NCBI RefSeq assembly: GCF_028471905.1
Contig: NZ_CP116902.1
Location: forward strand, 1,834,501 to 1,898,500
Direction of reading: 5' to 3'
From: Aneurinibacillus uraniidurans
Lineage (GTDB): Bacteria; Bacillota; Bacilli; Aneurinibacillales; Aneurinibacillaceae
DNA length: 64,000 bases
In this document: positions 12,959 through 48,502 of the stretch, one piece after another
Layout of the letters: each line of letters begins with the position of its first letter
Position numbering within the stretch: position 1 is the stretch's first letter
Notes under the pieces: model-generated
The model's database searches: none
What the model was told of the DNA's origin: nothing
What the model saw: the letters and a program-made list of their open reading frames with translations, nothing else
Program-made: the position numbers and the translations under genes

Positions 12959-13120
12959 CTCTTATCGAGAGAGACGGAGGGACATGGCCCGATGAAGTCT
13001 CAGCAACCACAGGTTTTCCTGTACGGTGCTAATTCCATCAAAGCTTTGTACATAAGCTTTGGAAGATGAGAGGAGGATATTCGGATACCCGACCCTCTTC
13101 TTAGGAAGAGGGTCTTTTTT
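12959..13120 (+). ncRNA. SAM-I (S-box) riboswitch with terminator
   Basis: P1 stem CTCTTATC (12959-12966)/GATGAGAG (13065-13072) closes an aptamer containing the S-box core: GGAGGGACATGGCCCGATGA, then AGCAACC, and GGTGCTAATTCC. A terminator stem GACCCTCTTC (13091-13100)/GAAGAGGGTC (13105-13114) with a T6 tail follows 18 nt later, and the P1 3' strand/linker (GAGAGGAGG) could form the competing antiterminator. High SAM should therefore switch off the hom gene 22 bp downstream. Confidence 0.95.
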
Positions 13121-13141: not shown

Positions 13142-14425
13142 ATGAAAAACATACGCATTGCTTTACTTGGACTTGGAACAGTAGGATCGGGAGTGGTGAC
13201 GATTTTACAAACGCACGCCGAGCGGCTTCGCAAGCAGACCGGTGTAGCATTTGAGATAGCAAGCATTTTGGTGCGTGATACTGCGCGCCCGCGTAAGGTG
13301 GAAGTGGAACGCAGTTTGCTTACAGATAATATCGCTCGCGTTTGGGCGAGTGAGCCGGATGTTGTCGTTGATGCGATGGGGGGCCTTGTGCCAACGCTTA
13401 GTTACATGGAAGAGGCAATTGCACGTGGCTGTCATGTCATATCTGCAAATAAAGAACTGCTGGCGATACACGGGGCCTGGCTGCATACGCTGGCACAAGA
13501 GCAAGGGGTCGGCTTGTTATACGAAGCAAGTGTAGGTGGAGGGATTCCGATTCTGAATACATTAGCCCAGCTATTGAATGTAAATCGGATTACGCGTGTG
13601 GCGGGTATTTTGAACGGTACGACGAATTATATTCTGACGCGTATGGAAGAAGAAGGATTGCCATATGAAGCGGTGCTTGCTGAGGCACAGGAGCTTGGTT
13701 TTGCAGAAGCGGACCCGACCGCCGATGTAGAAGGATATGATGCATTTCATAAAATCCGGATTGTAGCTCGTCTCTGTTTTGGTGAAGAGATAGACGAGAA
13801 AGCAAGTTTGCGGGATGGGATCACTAGTGTTACAGCGGAAGAGATTGAGTTATTTGGTCATCTGGGCTTACGGGTAAAGCTGCTCGCCACAGCCGAGCGG
13901 GTCGGTGCGAGCTTGCGTGTACAGGTAGCACCAACGCTTGTGCCGCATTCGCATGCATTAGCGCAAGTGAAAAATGAATACAACGGTGTGTTTGTTACAG
14001 GGGATGTGGTAGGAGATTTATTCTTTACAGGTAAAGGAGCAGGCATGCTGCCGACAGGAAGTGCGATTGTGGAAGATATTGTACATGCGGTGCGCGGTAC
14101 GACATTTATTCCAGAAACAGCGGCTGTTGCGCTTGCAGCGGAAGAAATCGTAGAAAAAACAGGGGTGGAAGCAGCCTTTTTTACTTTGAAGCCGAAAGAT
14201 GAGCGGGGGGAATTTAGCCTGCTGTCGTTTTTGTCGGGTGAGGCCGGTGTGCTGCATCGGGTAGAGACGGTGAAACGAAATGGACAGACACATGTAGCAG
14301 CGCTTCTTAGCTCGCATGATCGAGCTGTAATTAACGCATTTGCATACCACATAGGGGCAGTCGTTCGCTTTCGGGAACTGCTAGCAGAGCCAGAAGTCGT
14401 GCTGAGTCCAGTGACCATTAATTAG
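13142..14425 (+). CDS. hom: homoserine dehydrogenase
   Basis: 427 aa. N-terminal Rossmann NAD(P)-binding motif GLGTVGSGVV, central catalytic region with SANKELL, YEASVGGGIPI, GILNGTTNYIL and EADPTADVEGYDAFHK, and a C-terminal ACT domain (about residues 345-420) for feedback by amino acids. It reduces aspartate semialdehyde to homoserine, the branch to methionine, threonine and isoleucine. GGAGGGGG precedes the ATG. It is directly under an S-box riboswitch, so this copy is expected to respond to SAM. thrC/thrB do not follow, unusual for Bacillus-type hom operons. Confidence 0.95.
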   Translation: MKNIRIALLGLGTVGSGVVTILQTHAERLRKQTGVAFEIASILVRDTARPRKVEVERSLLTDNIARVWASEPDVVVDAMGGLVPTLSYMEEAIARGCHVISANKELLAIHGAWLHTLAQEQGVGLLYEASVGGGIPILNTLAQLLNVNRITRVAGILNGTTNYILTRMEEEGLPYEAVLAEAQELGFAEADPTADVEGYDAFHKIRIVARLCFGEEIDEKASLRDGITSVTAEEIELFGHLGLRVKLLATAERVGASLRVQVAPTLVPHSHALAQVKNEYNGVFVTGDVVGDLFFTGKGAGMLPTGSAIVEDIVHAVRGTTFIPETAAVALAAEEIVEKTGVEAAFFTLKPKDERGEFSLLSFLSGEAGVLHRVETVKRNGQTHVAALLSSHDRAVINAFAYHIGAVVRFRELLAEPEVVLSPVTIN

Positions 14426-19800: not shown

Positions 19801-19847
19801 GAGGCTGTCTCAAAGCCGTAACATGGCGACTGAGACAGTCTCTTTTT
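19801..19847 (+). terminator. intrinsic terminator after ispG
   Basis: GAGGCTGTCTCA (19801-19812) pairs with TGAGACAGTCTC (19831-19842), then TTTTT. Very similar AGGCTGTC-type hairpins occur at 31132, 31815 (as AGGCTGCC) and 42904, suggesting a repeated terminator module. Confidence 0.85.
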
Positions 19848-19904: not shown

Positions 19905-20236
19905 GATTAAGCATAATCAAGATGCATGTAGGTAAAAAATAAGGAAGCGATCTTTTGTAAAGCCAGTGACTACCTGAGCAAATCCGTTCTGGTGTCGAGC
20001 ATTTTTTGTAAACCAAAACGTTGTGCGGGGAGTGGGAGAAGGGCGGAGTAAGAGAGCGCTTGTACGCGCCTACTCAGCGGAGGGAGAACGGCGGACGAGT
20101 TTTTGCCCGCAATCCTTCGGTGAATTAACCTCGCAGGTTTTTCTTTGCGGGCACGTTCGCCGGGCTCCCGGAGCGGACAGTTGCTGCTTTCCTGCAAGCG
20201 TACCGAAGCGAACGGCTCCGCCCTTCTCCCACTCCC
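19905..20236 (+). repeat. structured repeat copy A with conserved 5' flank
   Basis: The core 20028-20236 is bounded by a perfect 21-bp inverted repeat (arms 20028-20048 and 20216-20236). Inside are nested stems: GGGAG/CTCCC (20082-20086/20165-20169), CGGCG/CGCCG (20089-20093/20158-20162), TGCCCGCAA/TTGCGGGCA (20104-20112/20145-20153) and apical AACCT/AGGTT (20127-20131/20135-20139). Unpaired blocks GTACGCGCCTACT and GCAAGCGTACCGAAG are conserved in copies B and C. The upstream flank (about 19905-20027) is shared with copy B only. An open frame crosses it but is not kept in copy C. Probably an RNA or a mobile element, not a gene for protein. Confidence 0.8.
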
Positions 20237-20399
20237 TTTCACTATGTTCCGGCTTTCAACAGTCTTTTTTGAATTTTATTTTAAATTTTTATGAAGATTT
20301 ATGTAGAATTTTGTCGGACGATTTTACAATAAAAACATCAGAACAACGCCTGAGCTTACATATAAGGTGTTGCAAACTACGAATGAAAGCGGTGACAAT

Positions 20400-31131: not shown

Positions 31132-31180
31132 GAGGCTGTCCCAAAAGCCAGAACGTGGCGGACTGGACAGTCTCTTTTTT
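31132..31180 (+). terminator. intrinsic terminator after moaB
   Basis: GAGGCTGTCC (31132-31141... arm ends 31141) pairs with GGACAGTCTC (31165-31174), one wobble, then six Ts. Same module as at 19801. Confidence 0.82.
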
Positions 31181-31206
31181 GTAGAATCGACAACGTGTGG
31201 TGGTGA

Positions 31207-31545
31207 GGGAGTGGGAGAAGGGAAGAGCTGTTCGCTTCGGTACGCTTGCAGGGAAGTGGTGATTGTCCGCTCCGGGAGCCCGACGAACGTGCCCGCAAAG
31301 AAAAGCACAGGATGCTCGTTCGCTGAAGGGTTGCGGGCAAAGGATCGTTCGTCGTTCTCCCTCCGCTGAGTAGGCGCGTACAGGCGCTCGTGCTCCTCCC
31401 TTCTCCCACTCCCCGCACAACGTTTTGGTTTACAAAAAGACTCTCGCCGCCAGAATGGATGTGCTCGGTAGCCACTGGCTTTTCGCAAGATCGCTTCCTT
31501 ATTTTTTATCTGCATAGCAAAGCTCAGCATTTTGATTATTCTTGA
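31207..31545 (-). repeat. structured repeat copy B (inverted) with conserved flank
   Basis: Core 31207-31413 on the minus strand, 207 bp, closed by 22-nt arms with one mismatch. All inner stems of copy A are retained; one pair is changed on both sides (CGGCG/CGCCG in A, CGACG/CGTCG in B) and the apical hairpin is different in sequence but still paired (AGCA/TGCT). The flank 31414 to about 31545 closely matches the flank of copy A. Open frames on the minus strand here are artefacts of this element. Confidence 0.8.
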
Positions 31546-31568
31546 TGATTTTCATCCAAAGTATGCTA

Positions 31569-31773
31569 GGAGCGGGATCGGGCGGGGCAGCGGAACGCCT
31601 GTACGCGCCTACTTAGCGGAAGGGGACAGGAGAACGGGTCTTTGCCCACAATGCTTCGATGTGAATTCATCACGGAAATCTTTTGTGGGCGAGTTCACCT
31701 GGCACCTGGAGCGGACAGTCCCTACTTCATAGCAAGCGTACCGAAGTGACGAGGCCCCGCCCGATCCCGCTCC
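31569..31773 (+). repeat. structured repeat copy C (diverged)
   Basis: 205 bp with perfect 19-20-bp terminal arms (31569-31588/31754-31773) whose sequence differs strongly from those of A and B. Inner stem TGCCCACAA/TTGTGGGCG shows a paired change relative to A (CGC/GCG to CAC/GTG). The GTACGCGCCTACT, GGAGCGGACAGT and GCAAGCGTACCGAAG blocks are retained. It lacks the flank shared by A and B and lies back-to-back with copy B. Confidence 0.78.
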
Positions 31774-31814
31774 TCCACCATACATTGGATAAAACCGTCC
31801 CCCAAGAAAAGAAA

Positions 31815-31858
31815 GAGGCTGCCTCAACTGCTATGTTACAGCTTTTGAGACAACCTCT
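31815..31858. terminator. terminator-like hairpin (AGGCTG module)
   Basis: AGAGGCTGCCTCAA pairs with TTGAGACAACCTCT (two G-T wobbles). T-rich sequence follows on the minus strand (TTTCTTTTCTT), so it could end minus-strand transcription coming from 32 kb. Confidence 0.55.
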
Positions 31859-31911
31859 TCTTACATGACTGGGGAGACAAGAACGGAAACGACCATTACC
31901 TTTTCCGTTCT

Positions 31912-32316
31912 TTAGGTTTCATATATAGTACGCACAATATACGCCGCTAGCATACTGAGTACAACAGTCGGTGTCAAAAGACAAATCCAATCTATCCAGA
32001 CGAGAATGGATGCTTCCGGTCCATAGCTGTTTCCGGGTGGAATATGAAGCCAGAATACGAAGACGGGAACGGTCATAGCTGCAAAGCAAAAAAGTGTGCG
32101 TATAGAGGAAATGCGGTACTGCCAACGAATATACGCCCGACAAATGAACAGATACAATAGACTAAGCAGAGCAAGCCACCAGGCAGCAGCAGGGCCTGGT
32201 GGCTCATCAAATCCACAAAGTATCCGCCACAAGAGCTGGAAGGGAAAAAACGAAAAAAGAACAACTATAGGAAATGCCTGTGAGCAAAAGTGCGTACATT
32301 TTTGGACGAATGTCAT
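31912..32316 (-). CDS. small hypothetical membrane protein
   Basis: 134 aa with four predicted transmembrane segments (IVVLFSFFPFQLLWRIL; WWLALLSLLYLFIC; LFCFAAMTVPVFVFWL; ICLLTPTVVLSMLAAYIV). No recognised family. AAGGAG lies just upstream of the ATG on the minus strand. An 11-bp inverted repeat (31879-31889/31902-31912) touches the stop codon and may be its terminator. Confidence 0.6.
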   Translation of the reverse strand: MTFVQKCTHFCSQAFPIVVLFSFFPFQLLWRILCGFDEPPGPAAAWWLALLSLLYLFICRAYIRWQYRISSIRTLFCFAAMTVPVFVFWLHIPPGNSYGPEASILVWIDWICLLTPTVVLSMLAAYIVRTIYET

Positions 32317-32391
32317 CGTTACGAATCGCTCCTTCTTTTCACTCTTTCTCCCTATATATTACCATTTCCCTCCAGTGAAGTGTCTGAAATT

Positions 32392-37037: not shown

Positions 37038-38468
37038 TTAGTTGTTTCTTGTCAACTGTTTCATTCGTTCCATTTCTTGTTCGTGCTTACTAAAGAAGTT
37101 GTTCCATGTTTCATTGGCTCGTCCAACATCTACTTCACGTAGATTGTCTTTTGTATTCATGATGAGGAAGGCACTATACAAATCACGTTGCACATCCCCT
37201 TGCTCAAAGTGGTTCCAACGTTTTGAGAGTTTTTTCTTCACGCACGTTTGGGTGAAGTGTTCAAATTGACTGGCTTTCACTTTAGTGGTGTCAATCCGCT
37301 TTAACTGTAAGCCGAAATAGTTTAGTTTGTTGTCGATAATCGAAAGAAGCATAGATGGCGCACGGTTCGCTATTGACTTTCCAAACCGTTTTTTACGTTT
37401 GTATCGTCCTGTCTTTTCGCTACGTTCTGTTTTCTTTGCTTTTGCTTGAAGTCCTTTGAAATTCATGGTTTCAACTCGGACGTCCAACCCTAACGAAAGA
37501 ATATGATTCGCCAGTTGATTGTGTGATTGCTTGCGCTTATCCGCAATTTTTCGACTCATTTCAGCGAACGCTTGCCGTGTTTTCTTGTAGTTTTCACTTT
37601 GAATCCATTTCTCTCGATTTGATTTGGTACTGGTGCCATCGGCATTGTACTTGTTTGGATTATTCGCTCGGCGCCTGCGGTCTAACGTACGTTGTAGCAT
37701 ACGTCTTTGACGTTCATCTACTGCCAAACCTTCCGCTAGCTCAAGTAGCTTCACTTCCTTTTCAGAAGCAATGGCGAGTGTGGATGTGCCAATATCTAAT
37801 CCGACACGAGCATTTTCATCGTTGGAGTAGTTCTGATTGCGTTTTTTTGGTGGAAAACCTTCTAACGCAAATTGAACGAGGTAACGATTTTTCCCACGAA
37901 TCACTTTCTTTACAAGTCGGCAATATTTGATTTTATCTTGAAGCGCACGATGTGCGTATTCATCATGATCGGTAAGAATGACAGGTAGGATAAGTCCAAG
38001 CCATTCCATGCGTTTGTTTTCGGGGAAGTATCGAAAACCGGTCTTGTTTGTCTTTTCTTCTAACGAAAAGAATTGACCGACTGAACAAAAATGTACTTTT
38101 TTACCGTTCCCATACATGACGTTCTCAACGGCTTGAAACGCACGTTCCGCGATATTCTGAGCCATTTGAGAACCGATATTTTGCTTAAACGTACGTCCCA
38201 TTCCTTGAACGTACCGATTTAAGTCGAATTTACGCACACCATATTGTTCTTTGAATTGGTTTAAAAGTTGATTTCGTTCTTTGCTTTTTGACATGCGAAT
38301 CGCTTCCCAATATCTGGGGTTACGTGTCATGTGTTTGTATCTACGCCACGCTTCACCTAGACAGGCATTGTAGATCGTTCGCCCAATGTGTAAGCGTTTT
38401 TCCAAGATGTGTTCTTGCCATGTTTCAACTTGTAAAGGCAACGTAAGCACATAGGTTGGCGTTGCCAT
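37038..38468 (-). CDS. tnpB: TnpB-like RNA-guided nuclease of the IS605 element
   Basis: 476 aa. N-terminal WED/REC-like region, then RuvC motifs: GLDIGTSTLA (Asp225), RVETMNFKGL (Glu333) and QRDLYSAFL (Asp429), so the nuclease triad is complete. The zinc finger normally placed between the second and third RuvC motifs (two CxxC pairs) is missing; this segment (EHFTQTCVKKKLSKRWNHF) holds one Cys only. TnpB proteins cut DNA guided by omega RNA and preserve the element at donor sites. Begins 19 bp after tnpA. Confidence 0.88.
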   Translation of the reverse strand: MATPTYVLTLPLQVETWQEHILEKRLHIGRTIYNACLGEAWRRYKHMTRNPRYWEAIRMSKSKERNQLLNQFKEQYGVRKFDLNRYVQGMGRTFKQNIGSQMAQNIAERAFQAVENVMYGNGKKVHFCSVGQFFSLEEKTNKTGFRYFPENKRMEWLGLILPVILTDHDEYAHRALQDKIKYCRLVKKVIRGKNRYLVQFALEGFPPKKRNQNYSNDENARVGLDIGTSTLAIASEKEVKLLELAEGLAVDERQRRMLQRTLDRRRRANNPNKYNADGTSTKSNREKWIQSENYKKTRQAFAEMSRKIADKRKQSHNQLANHILSLGLDVRVETMNFKGLQAKAKKTERSEKTGRYKRKKRFGKSIANRAPSMLLSIIDNKLNYFGLQLKRIDTTKVKASQFEHFTQTCVKKKLSKRWNHFEQGDVQRDLYSAFLIMNTKDNLREVDVGRANETWNNFFSKHEQEMERMKQLTRNN

Positions 38469-38487
38469 CTAGGTTCAGCTCCTTTCG

Positions 38488-38889
38488 CTATTTCTTTTGT
38501 TGAGTACGAATATATTGTCGTATTTGCGCTTCCGTATGTTCACTTACGGTTGCCACAAAGTAAGAAGGATTCCAAGGATTCCCTCCCCATAACTTCTTTT
38601 TTAGCTGGGGAAACTCTTTAAATAGCAACCTTGCTGAAATGCCTTTTAACGCTTTGATGATATTCAGAATTGAATGTTGGGGATTACAGTCAACCAAGAG
38701 ATGAACATGGTCACAATCACTTTCAATTTCTGAAATCGTGAGACCATTATCTGTAGCAATTCGATTGAGTATTTCCTTTAATCGTATATCTATACCGCCA
38801 AGTAACACGTTGTGGCGATATTTCACGCACCATACAATATGGTATTGGATAGCGTACACATATCCTCTACCATGTTTGACTTCTGCCAT
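38488..38889 (-). CDS. tnpA: IS200/IS605 Y1 transposase
   Basis: 133 aa from the inner ATG (GAGGTGG five bases upstream); GTG at 38898 is also in frame. HUH motif in DHVHLLVD (His64, His66 counted from the longer frame) and catalytic Tyr129 in QIRQYIRTQ. It excises and inserts single-stranded DNA using hairpins at the element ends. All catalytic residues are present, so it may be active. Confidence 0.92.
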   Translation of the reverse strand: MAEVKHGRGYVYAIQYHIVWCVKYRHNVLLGGIDIRLKEILNRIATDNGLTISEIESDCDHVHLLVDCNPQHSILNIIKALKGISARLLFKEFPQLKKKLWGGNPWNPSYFVATVSEHTEAQIRQYIRTQQKK

Positions 38890-39065
38890 GCTATCCACCT
38901 CAATTACAGGATAACATATGGCAAAAGATTTTTTAGGCTGTTACTACTAAATCTCAGTATTTTTATCAGTATGTGAGTTAACATATATCGGACAATTGAC
39001 GTGTCAAAAGACACGCCTTGTCCGAAGCCGAGAACACTCATGACTAAAATCACGAGTGTTCTCGG

Positions 39066-41270: not shown

Positions 41271-41322
41271 TTCTTGCTATCCTTTACATATGAAATTCTT
41301 GAGGATAGAAAGGACGGTACGA

Positions 41323-42888
41323 ATGAATAAAAAAACGATGACATTCATGGGGATTGTATTATCGACCGCGTTATTGAGTGCTTGCTCATCGATGAATGGA
41401 ATGGATCACTCAAATATGAGCGGCATGAATCAATCTTCAACTAAGAGTCAGGCCATTCCAGCCGCTGTTACTCCTGTTGTAAGCAAAGTAGGCAACCAAA
41501 CGATCAAAGAGTTTTCTTTGGTAGCCAAATCTACGGAACAAGAAATCAAAAATGGCGTGACGGTTCCTGTTTGGACGTACAATGGAACAGTACCTGGTAG
41601 TCAGATTCGTGTTACACAAGGGGATCGTGTAAAAGTTCATTTGAAAAATGAATTATCCGTTCCAATCACCATTCATTGGCATGGCTATCCTGTCCCAAAT
41701 AGCATGGACGGGATTCCCGGAATGACACAAGCTTCTATCAAACCAGGCCAATCTTTTACGTATGATTTCGTGGCCACAACACCAGGTACTTATTGGTATC
41801 ACTCTCATTACAATAGTGCAGCACAAGTGGATAAAGGTTTGTATGGCACATTCATTGTTGATCCAAAAGATGAGACGAACAAGCCAAATCGTGACTATAC
41901 GCTTGTATTGGATGAATGGATGACCGACTCAAACATGAATGGTCATGATATGTCCAATATGAATGGTCAAATGAACATGGGGAATCACGATATGTCTACC
42001 ATGCCCAACATGGATCATGATCAAATGATGAAACAAATGTATAACGTTTATACGGTTAATGGTAAGGCAGGAAATCTTATTGAACCGTTAACCGTGAAAA
42101 AGGGAGAGAAGGTGCGCCTTCGTTTTGTAAACGCAGGATATTTATCTCACACTATTCATCTGCCAAATCAACCATTTCAAGTGGTGGCCATCGACGGTAA
42201 TCCTATTACGTCAACTCCGTTGATTAAAGATCAACTGTTACGTATCGGACCTGGAGAACGATATGATGTCGAGTTTACAGCGGATGGCGCTACGAACTGG
42301 ATCATTGACAGTCACGATGATACGCCTTATGCGGCAGATATCCATATTCCCGTTATGTACGAAGGAAATAATACGACACCAAAATCGGATTCGGACAAAA
42401 ATCTTCCGATCGTAGATATTACTAATTATGGAGATGTAGCAAACCAGACGTTTAACGAGCAAACGAAATTTAATAAAAACTATATGCTTCATTTAAACTC
42501 GAAAGTAGTGAATGGCAATCAGGAATACATGATCAACGATAAGGTCTATCCGAACACGGACCCATTAACGGTATCAAAAGGTGATAAAGTAAAAGTAACT
42601 CTTATCAATGATGGGAAGTCCGATCATCCAATGCACTTGCATGGGCACGTTTTTCAAATCCTGTCCAAGAACGGAAAGCCTGTGAAGGACCCGGTATGGA
42701 AAGATACAATTGTCGTTCGCCCGGGTGAAAGATATGACATCGCTTTTCAAGCAAATAACACAGGGAATTGGATGTTCCACTGTCATGATTTGCACCATGC
42801 AGCAATGGGGATGATGACGGAGGTCGAATATCAAGGCTATCATTCCTCGATTAAACCAGACCCAGAAGATATGAAGGCAAGTGAATAG
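41323..42888 (+). CDS. Met-rich multicopper oxidase lipoprotein
   Basis: 521 aa from ATG 41323 (GAAAGGA upstream). Lipobox LLSAC with lipidated Cys21, then a His/Met linker. Copper sites are complete: HWHGYP and YWYHSHY in domain 1, HPMHLHGH and HCHDLHHAAMGM in domain 3. A Met/His-rich insert (HDMSNMNGQMNMGNHDMSTM) between domains resembles the copper-binding inserts of CueO-type cuprous oxidases. It probably oxidises toxic Cu(I) at the outer face of the membrane. The two-component system just upstream and shared operator suggest copper-induced expression. Confidence 0.9.
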   Translation: MNKKTMTFMGIVLSTALLSACSSMNGMDHSNMSGMNQSSTKSQAIPAAVTPVVSKVGNQTIKEFSLVAKSTEQEIKNGVTVPVWTYNGTVPGSQIRVTQGDRVKVHLKNELSVPITIHWHGYPVPNSMDGIPGMTQASIKPGQSFTYDFVATTPGTYWYHSHYNSAAQVDKGLYGTFIVDPKDETNKPNRDYTLVLDEWMTDSNMNGHDMSNMNGQMNMGNHDMSTMPNMDHDQMMKQMYNVYTVNGKAGNLIEPLTVKKGEKVRLRFVNAGYLSHTIHLPNQPFQVVAIDGNPITSTPLIKDQLLRIGPGERYDVEFTADGATNWIIDSHDDTPYAADIHIPVMYEGNNTTPKSDSDKNLPIVDITNYGDVANQTFNEQTKFNKNYMLHLNSKVVNGNQEYMINDKVYPNTDPLTVSKGDKVKVTLINDGKSDHPMHLHGHVFQILSKNGKPVKDPVWKDTIVVRPGERYDIAFQANNTGNWMFHCHDLHHAAMGMMTEVEYQGYHSSIKPDPEDMKASE

Positions 42889-42903
42889 CTTGAACGTATA
42901 TAA

Positions 42904-42940
42904 GGCTGTCCCGAAAGTAACTTCGGGACAGCCTCTTTTT
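42904..42940 (+). terminator. intrinsic terminator after the multicopper oxidase
   Basis: Perfect 12-bp stem GGCTGTCCCGAA (42904-42915)/TTCGGGACAGCC (42922-42933), then CTCTTTTTT. Confidence 0.9.
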
Positions 42941-47208: not shown

Positions 47209-48363
47209 ATGAAAAAATGGATCTGTTCACTTTTGACTATATGCTTTTTAGGAACGGGGACGGCGTCTGCTAGCCCGCTTACAGTAAAACCTCAACCACT
47301 ACCGGCGCTGCAAAGTGAAGCGGCTGTGCTGATGGACGCACGATCCGGTGATGTTTTGTATGAGAAAAACGGAGAGAAAATAATGTTTCCAGCCAGTATC
47401 ACCAAAATTGTTACAAGTGCGCTGGCGATTGAACAAGGGAAGCTGTCGGATGTCGTGACGGTATCAAAAGATGCACATGATGTCACGGGGACACGTGTAT
47501 ATCTAGCAGTCGGTGAACAAAAGCCGTTAGAAGACCTTGTGTATGCAGCGATGCTAAATTCCGGAAATGATGCGGCTGTTGCCATCGCTGAACATATGGC
47601 TGGCAGTAGTGAAGCGTTTAGTAGTCGCATGAACGCATTTGCTAAAGCGGCGGGGGCGACACACACGAACTTTGTGAATCCAGATGGTCTGCCAGACCCG
47701 AAGCATGTAACGACAGCGCTTGATATGGCACGCATTATGCGTGTAGCGATGCAAAACCCGACGTTTCGTACGATTGCTTCTACACAGGAGCGAAAATGGG
47801 ACGGAGCAGAGTGGAAATCGAATCTAGTGAACCATTCTCGCCAGTTCTTACAAAGCTATCCCGGAGCTATTGGGGCTAAGAATGGATTCACACAGCAGGC
47901 GGGATTTACGTTTGTCGCGGCAGCAGAGCGGAATGGACAAGAGTTGATTGCGGTTCTATTGAAAGCACCCACACGTAATGAGATTACGAAGGAAGCAGAG
48001 CAGCTTCTTACGTACGGATTTACTAATTTCCGTACGGTACAGGTAGCGCGAACTAGTCAGCATTTTACGTATAAAGGAGAAACACTCGTGGCGCGCCGGG
48101 ATGTGTATACATCGATTCCGGCAAATGATAAATATACAGTGGATACAGATGAAGGGCGTAGTCTGCTTGTTCGATCTACGTCTGGAGCACAGCATCTATA
48201 TGCTGATACGCTGGATGCACAGCCAGACGACCGTATAGCTGCTCCAGCGTCACAAAGTTTACGTAATGGGTTTATATCTAGAAAAGGTGTAATAGCGGCG
48301 GGAATGATCGCATTGGTTGTAGCGGGTGGAATCATGATCTACCGCCGACGTGTAAATCAATAG
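47209..48363 (+). CDS. D-alanyl-D-alanine carboxypeptidase (DacF/PBP5 type)
   Basis: 384 aa, class S11 penicillin-binding protein. Signal peptide (ICSLLTICFLGTGTASA), catalytic SITK (Ser63, Lys66), SGN (118-120) and KNGFT in place of the usual KTG box, then a C-terminal beta domain and a transmembrane anchor (GMIALVVAGGIMIYRRR). It trims the terminal D-Ala from peptidoglycan stem peptides. The anchor is a true membrane helix, not the amphipathic helix of PBP5. The spacing and sporulation role cannot be told from here. Confidence 0.9.
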   Translation: MKKWICSLLTICFLGTGTASASPLTVKPQPLPALQSEAAVLMDARSGDVLYEKNGEKIMFPASITKIVTSALAIEQGKLSDVVTVSKDAHDVTGTRVYLAVGEQKPLEDLVYAAMLNSGNDAAVAIAEHMAGSSEAFSSRMNAFAKAAGATHTNFVNPDGLPDPKHVTTALDMARIMRVAMQNPTFRTIASTQERKWDGAEWKSNLVNHSRQFLQSYPGAIGAKNGFTQQAGFTFVAAAERNGQELIAVLLKAPTRNEITKEAEQLLTYGFTNFRTVQVARTSQHFTYKGETLVARRDVYTSIPANDKYTVDTDEGRSLLVRSTSGAQHLYADTLDAQPDDRIAAPASQSLRNGFISRKGVIAAGMIALVVAGGIMIYRRRVNQ

Positions 48364-48458
48364 AAAGAGATCGGAATGCACAAGACGGCGAACAGACGGT
48401 ATGTGAACTGCAAGCGGCCGGTTGGGAGTGTGATACAAACGGTAGGAGATAGCACATA

Positions 48459-48502
48459 AAAACGCAGGGAAAGTACTTTTAAAATGACTTTCCCTGCGTT
48501 TT
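48459..48502. terminator. bidirectional terminator between convergent genes
   Basis: Perfect 16-bp stem, AAAACGCAGGGAAAGT (48459-48474)/ACTTTCCCTGCGTTTT (48487-48502), with A/T runs suited to both directions. Confidence 0.9.

Follow-up and report, generated by a model that had tools for sequence, protein, structure and literature searches.

Judged from sequence, the structured repeats in the 64,000-nucleotide stretch of Aneurinibacillus uraniidurans DNA analysed here (the window) are very probably MITE-like mobile elements, which contain no protein gene, are built around a folded core and are most likely moved in trans by DDE transposases of the IS1182 family. The original prediction had regarded the repeats as an unknown structured RNA and had set this against insertion sequence ends or a MITE with transposition footprints. 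What we found belongs to the latter: inverted ends of the IS1182 type, sites that are empty between two species, and, in relatives, target duplications of hairpin length.

The three copies were confirmed exactly as predicted, with lengths of 209 (A), 207 (B) and 205 bp (C), and the fixed blocks are present in them. The sequence GTACGCGCCTACTNAGCGGA had exactly three matches across the window, compared with 0.01 expected. The folding of copy A gave z = -8.0, and the opposite strand was nearly equal (z = -7.45). The features of the elements are as follows, with positions counted from the first letter of the window:

19801-19845: left end hairpin belonging to copy A's solo element, downstream of an ispG-like gene, GAGGCTGTCTCAAAGC
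20028-20236 (+): copy A, a type-1 unit on its own, preceded on the left by part of the spacer; core at 20073-20205
20237-20270 (+): degenerate right tail of the copy-A element and remnant of its end hairpin, right limit approximate
31132-31857: complete composite element of 726 bp, inverted ends on both sides, site empty in G005 (a second species of the same genus)
31132-31174: left end hairpin; its GAGGCTGTCCCAAAAG at 31132-31147 matches the terminal repeat of L265, an intact insertion sequence of the IS1182 family, without mismatch
31207-31413 (-): copy B, type-1 structured unit facing outward (left), core at 31238-31370
31414-31568: spacer of about 155 bp between the divergent units, conserved among copies
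31569-31773 (+): copy C, type-2 structured unit facing outward (right), core at 31612-31743
31815-31857: right end hairpin, in inverted orientation to the left hairpin, with GAGGTTGTCTCAAAAG on the minus strand at 31842-31857

Because the inverted ends at 31132-31147 and 31842-31857 had 0 and 2 mismatches, respectively, we assigned copies B and C to one element of 726 bp, in the order end hairpin, type-1 unit (B), spacer, type-2 unit (C), end hairpin. It had not been recognised before that B and C form the two arms of a single element, nor that the unit reaches past the ends previously given to it. The edges of the spacer pair with the outer tails of the units, so the closing stems are longer. 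The end of the copy-A element has 3 mismatches to the insertion sequence end, and copy A is also found at the same place in G005 (L002). The arms of copy C had been reported to differ from those of A and B. These differences are real, but they mark a second unit type that recurs throughout the genome, so what separates A from C is the old difference between type 1 and type 2 and not an independent local event. At 42902-42935, after the gene at 41290-42888, a stand-alone hairpin (AAGGCTGTCCCGAAAG...ACTTCGGGACAGCCTC) has the element-end motif as a gene terminator without an element; the end motif is therefore not exclusive to the elements.

The covariance model R1 matched 95 times in the genome of the window (G000, 3.85 Mb), at least 150 times in G005, and 6 times in G006. 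Most copies were paired as divergent type-1 and type-2 units; the loci fetched from two genomes contained 35 such pairs, with a gap of 97-159 bp, mostly 151-159 bp. The model R2, a 131-nt core, was built from G007 (Aneurinibacillus tyrosinisolvens LL-002), G008 and G003 only, with G000 and G005 left out. Its matches in the window were exactly A, B and C, with E values of about 1e-10. R2 matched in all 11 genomes of the taxonomic family (5 to 134 matches each) and in 40 of 300 sampled Bacilli genomes, representing 17 of 118 genera; under stricter filters, a phylum-wide sample gave no further genomes with the core. The carriers of the core include A. tyrosinisolvens LL-002 and Brevibacillus panacihumi, and some Bacilli have dozens to over a hundred elements per genome. 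The copies sit at unrelated intergenic sites, many of them are truncated, and no flanking gene shared among copies was found. In such genomes, the elements have extensively remodelled the intergenic terminators. At one locus (L139, G107), the core occurs twice, head-to-tail and about 165 bp apart, which is a tandem duplication of one element. At another (L213, G054:623139), the element has no 3' arm and the core leads directly into the ribosome-binding site of the downstream gene, so capture as a 5' leader is possible.

Across genera, the most conserved part is the central core with its asymmetric unpaired blocks, and the end sequences vary between lineages. The blocks common across lineages include CYYAGYG, ACCCAGATGTTT in the apical part, and CGGACAGT-N5-CTTCC. 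Among the 76 copies of the genus, 97.9% of cells were paired, and two-sided changes occurred in 24 of 46 pairs, compared with 10.5 in shuffles. In the cross-genus core alignment, 93.3% of cells were paired (73.8% in shuffles), two-sided cells numbered 72 (23.5 in shuffles), and 14 of 22 pairs varied on both sides. The compensating stem changes first described in three copies were thus borne out in larger alignments, both in the 76 copies and in the independent cross-genus core. A pseudoknot between the apical loop and the 3' side (ACTGTC/GACAGT) occurs in some lineages and is not universal, and it was not counted as evidence. A search of Rfam release 15 with gathering and permissive thresholds, covering the window and 32 loci of other lineages, gave nothing relevant, including HEARO and group I and group II introns. 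Weak matches to eukaryotic microRNA precursors, below the gathering score, arose only from the long hairpins. Accordingly, the conserved fold, the compensating stems, the fixed unpaired blocks and the absence from Rfam all stand, but the repeats are not a lone RNA gene; they are a repeated mobile element. Likewise, selection on structure agrees with the covarying and conserved fold, and the core may act as RNA or as folded single-stranded DNA; the G.U excess described below favours one strand in the window's genus and is absent within the young copies of two Bacillaceae genomes. Covariation by itself must not be read as proving a host RNA gene. Elsewhere in the window, a SAM (S-box) riboswitch (93.7 bits) at 12959-13072 (+) precedes the gene at 13142. 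The window also contains an IS605-type element at 37038-38898 (-), with a Y1 transposase at 38488-38898 and an OrfB-like gene at 37038-38468 just under the Pfam cut-off.

The site of the B/C element was empty in G005, where the flanks are 91% identical, positions 31136-32375 of the window are missing, and an ordinary terminator lies there instead. In the reverse case, a composite of G005 (L175, 1730-2483) corresponds to an empty site in the window at 48360-48493, and the native terminator immediately downstream of that site is AAAACGCAGGGAAAG...CTTTCCCTGCGTTTT. Two further empty sites agree between the species, making four in all. Beside the B/C element, an ORF of 134 aa at 31912-32316 (-) is predicted to be membrane-like and has no Pfam or NCBIfam match; the orthologous locus of G005 lacks this stretch. 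Around the copies in the window's genus, G007 and G008, the search for direct repeats gave one isolated match, which lies inside the element's own end hairpin, and no hairpin duplication was seen. Judged from the four empty sites, insertion in the window's genus appears to replace the hairpin; foot complementarity was borderline (p = 0.06).

In several Bacillaceae copies, the flanking direct repeats were perfect and consisted of complete terminator hairpins. Two Bacillaceae genomes (G054 and G096) have elements with the ends (C)AGACTGAnGACAAA ... TTTGTCTnCAnnCTG. The left end alone had 53 matches in G054 and 45 in G096, compared with 3 and 3 in the controls. We examined 69 complete elements in the two genomes, all with the core, about 200-360 bp long and without a transposase gene. 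At 51 of the 69, direct repeats of 12-38 bp (median 24), perfect or nearly so, directly flank the element (within 6 nt). Fifty of these 51 repeats are whole hairpins, and the repeat length followed the hairpin span with r = 0.95. The cross-locus control score was at most 13, and the elements' own scores reached 38. Among 25 elements scored, the direction of the terminator relative to the element had no bias. This indicates that the elements in G054 and G096 insert exactly at hairpins and copy the whole hairpin.

The ends of the composites are inverted copies of GAGGCTGTCYCAAAAG, and both ends were present in 22 of the 35 composites, compared with a chance of 2.3% per flank. Composites with such ends in G000 and G005 are 667-737 bp in total. 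The same 16 bases terminate the intact IS1182-family insertion sequence L265 of G007, with which the left end in the window agrees at 16 of 16 positions, and the transposase of L265 matches NF033551 with 443 bits. L265 lies on contig 64 of A. tyrosinisolvens and has the short palindrome TCATGA on both flanks. In G054, the sole IS1182-type transposase locus (L249/L267, G054:1368000-1369830) is a remnant split by an IS21-like istA gene and keeps the end sequence of the small elements: a copy of their terminal sequence, with 1 mismatch to the search pattern, is about 110 bp away, and a hairpin lies just outside. From these matches, we infer a link between the elements and IS1182 transposases. The core is absent from the IS1182 loci, so it is not simply the interior of a shrunken insertion sequence. 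In G000 and G054, the IS1182 transposases found are remnants; G005, G107 and G050 gave none, though G005 and G107 hold many element copies. The features of IS1182-associated MITEs are present, namely short length, no transposase gene, shared terminal inverted repeats, and a hairpin target with a footprint; the footprint comes from G054 and G096, and the window's own copies show empty sites only, without direct repeats.

Other explanations were considered. The repeats could be a host noncoding RNA family that multiplied for its own sake, with promoter-driven units that end at the adjacent terminator hairpin and act in trans. The strong covariation and the fixed loops across genera agree with this, as do the terminator-like hairpin that follows many units at a constant distance and, in G007, a closing stem that continues directly into a T-run. 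The strand preference of the fold also counts here. A first strand test, with G.U:A.C of about 10:1, was discarded because its pairs had been chosen on the tested strand. With strand-neutral pairs, which both strands share in their folds, the ratio in G000 and G005 was 231:123 cells, partly from doubtful apical and end pairs; in the stems, repeated G.U occurred at 44 pair-sites and repeated A.C at 16 (singletons, 29:16). This G.U excess favours one strand in the window's genus. However, G.U and A.C were equal in the young copies of G054 and G096 (56:51 and 25:23), as in unconstrained copies. Because young copies thus seem to be without strand-specific constraint, the constraint probably acts on source copies and not on individual young copies. 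The transposition footprints and empty sites, the unrelated flanking genes, the many truncated copies, and a spacer alignment in which no promoter was clear by eye also argue against a host RNA family, which we regard as unlikely.

It is also conceivable that selection acts on the DNA palindrome only. Long terminal inverted repeats, maintained in perfect form by template switching, would then produce the "RNA" fold as a side effect. In DNA, the long closing stems are indeed palindromic, and both strands fold almost equally, but the part most conserved across genera is the asymmetric central core and not the ends, which differ between lineages while the core stays; we consider this quite improbable. 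Group IIC introns insert beside terminators. The same preference in our elements, together with the fixed 3' ends, the somewhat variable 5' ends and the strand preference in the window's genus, would agree with a SINE-like, group IIC-intron-like or RAYT/REP-like system, in which a reverse transcriptase or HUH enzyme moves the elements as folded single-stranded DNA or via an RNA intermediate. Such movement is highly improbable given the inverted ends in common with DDE-type IS1182 elements, the hairpin-length direct duplications on both sides, and the lack of an intron or ribozyme match in Rfam. A group IIC intron or derivative was rejected on the Rfam result and the long target duplications in G054 and G096. 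A RAYT/REP system was ruled out because the single Y1 transposase of G000, in an ordinary IS605-type element and beside an OrfB-like gene, is unlinked to the repeats, of which there are about 95 copies.

For MITE-like elements mobilised by IS1182-type transposases, we propose that a transcription terminator would extrude a hairpin or cruciform and that the transposase would paste the element in at its foot. DDE strand transfer at both 5' feet would then duplicate the entire hairpin, as in G054 and G096, and in the window's genus the insertion would replace the hairpin instead. Since a terminator remains after insertion, landing at terminators would do the host no harm. The core would constrain the single strand of the element (transcript or displaced DNA strand), and is perhaps a platform to which the transposase or a host factor binds. 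We speculate, tentatively, that the core, as RNA or folded single-stranded DNA, may be active in transposition, where it would capture different IS1182-type transposases or steer them to extruded terminator hairpins. If this is true, the elements are a parasite family that rides on unrelated transposon ends via a shared folded module. The core is absent from Rfam and conserved over many Bacilli genera, and mobile elements whose ends differ carry it; this makes it directly testable what a structured nucleic acid does in DDE transposition. The 51 loci are a natural replicated data set for structure-directed integration, in which the whole hairpin is duplicated and its length sets that of the duplication.

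Studies have shown that elements of the IS1272/IS1182 family also target inverted repeats or hairpins, and a DDE transposase of this type lies beside the same ends (PMC5678879). In contrast, the present elements have no transposase, are 250-740 bp long and have a conserved folded core. The structure-dependent model proposed for IS1272/IS1182 in 2017 includes a pathway that duplicates the whole stem-loop, and IS1272 insertions replaced the hairpin without duplication (PMC5678879), unlike the elements in G054 and G096. Complete-hairpin duplication had thus been drawn as a model and, as far as we found in the literature, had not been observed. Like bacterial MITEs, our elements are short, intergenic and stably folded, with no transposase, inverted ends, and direct repeats in young copies (PMC10969869). 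Unlike MITEs in general, they have a core conserved with covariation over at least 17 genera, variable duplications of 12-38 bp set by the target hairpin, and, in the window's genus, paired divergent units. Long duplications of variable length are shared with IS1549/IS1634, whose direct repeats of 8-514 bp were reported with no mechanistic model (PMC2266710), whereas here the duplication length is the hairpin length. Among predicted structured RNAs, MRSC also have a covarying structure, dozens of copies per genome and a suspected selfish nature (PMC11109978). The published example MRSC-65-2, the one MRSC compared, forms one long stem with a UYCCGG repeat; our elements differ from it in their conserved blocks and precise insertion footprints. 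Similarly, bcr1 and other repeats of the Bacillus cereus group are interspersed, foldable and mobile-looking intergenic repeats of Bacillota, about 150 bp long, and bcr1 is set apart by its description as specific to the B. cereus group (PMC2267715).
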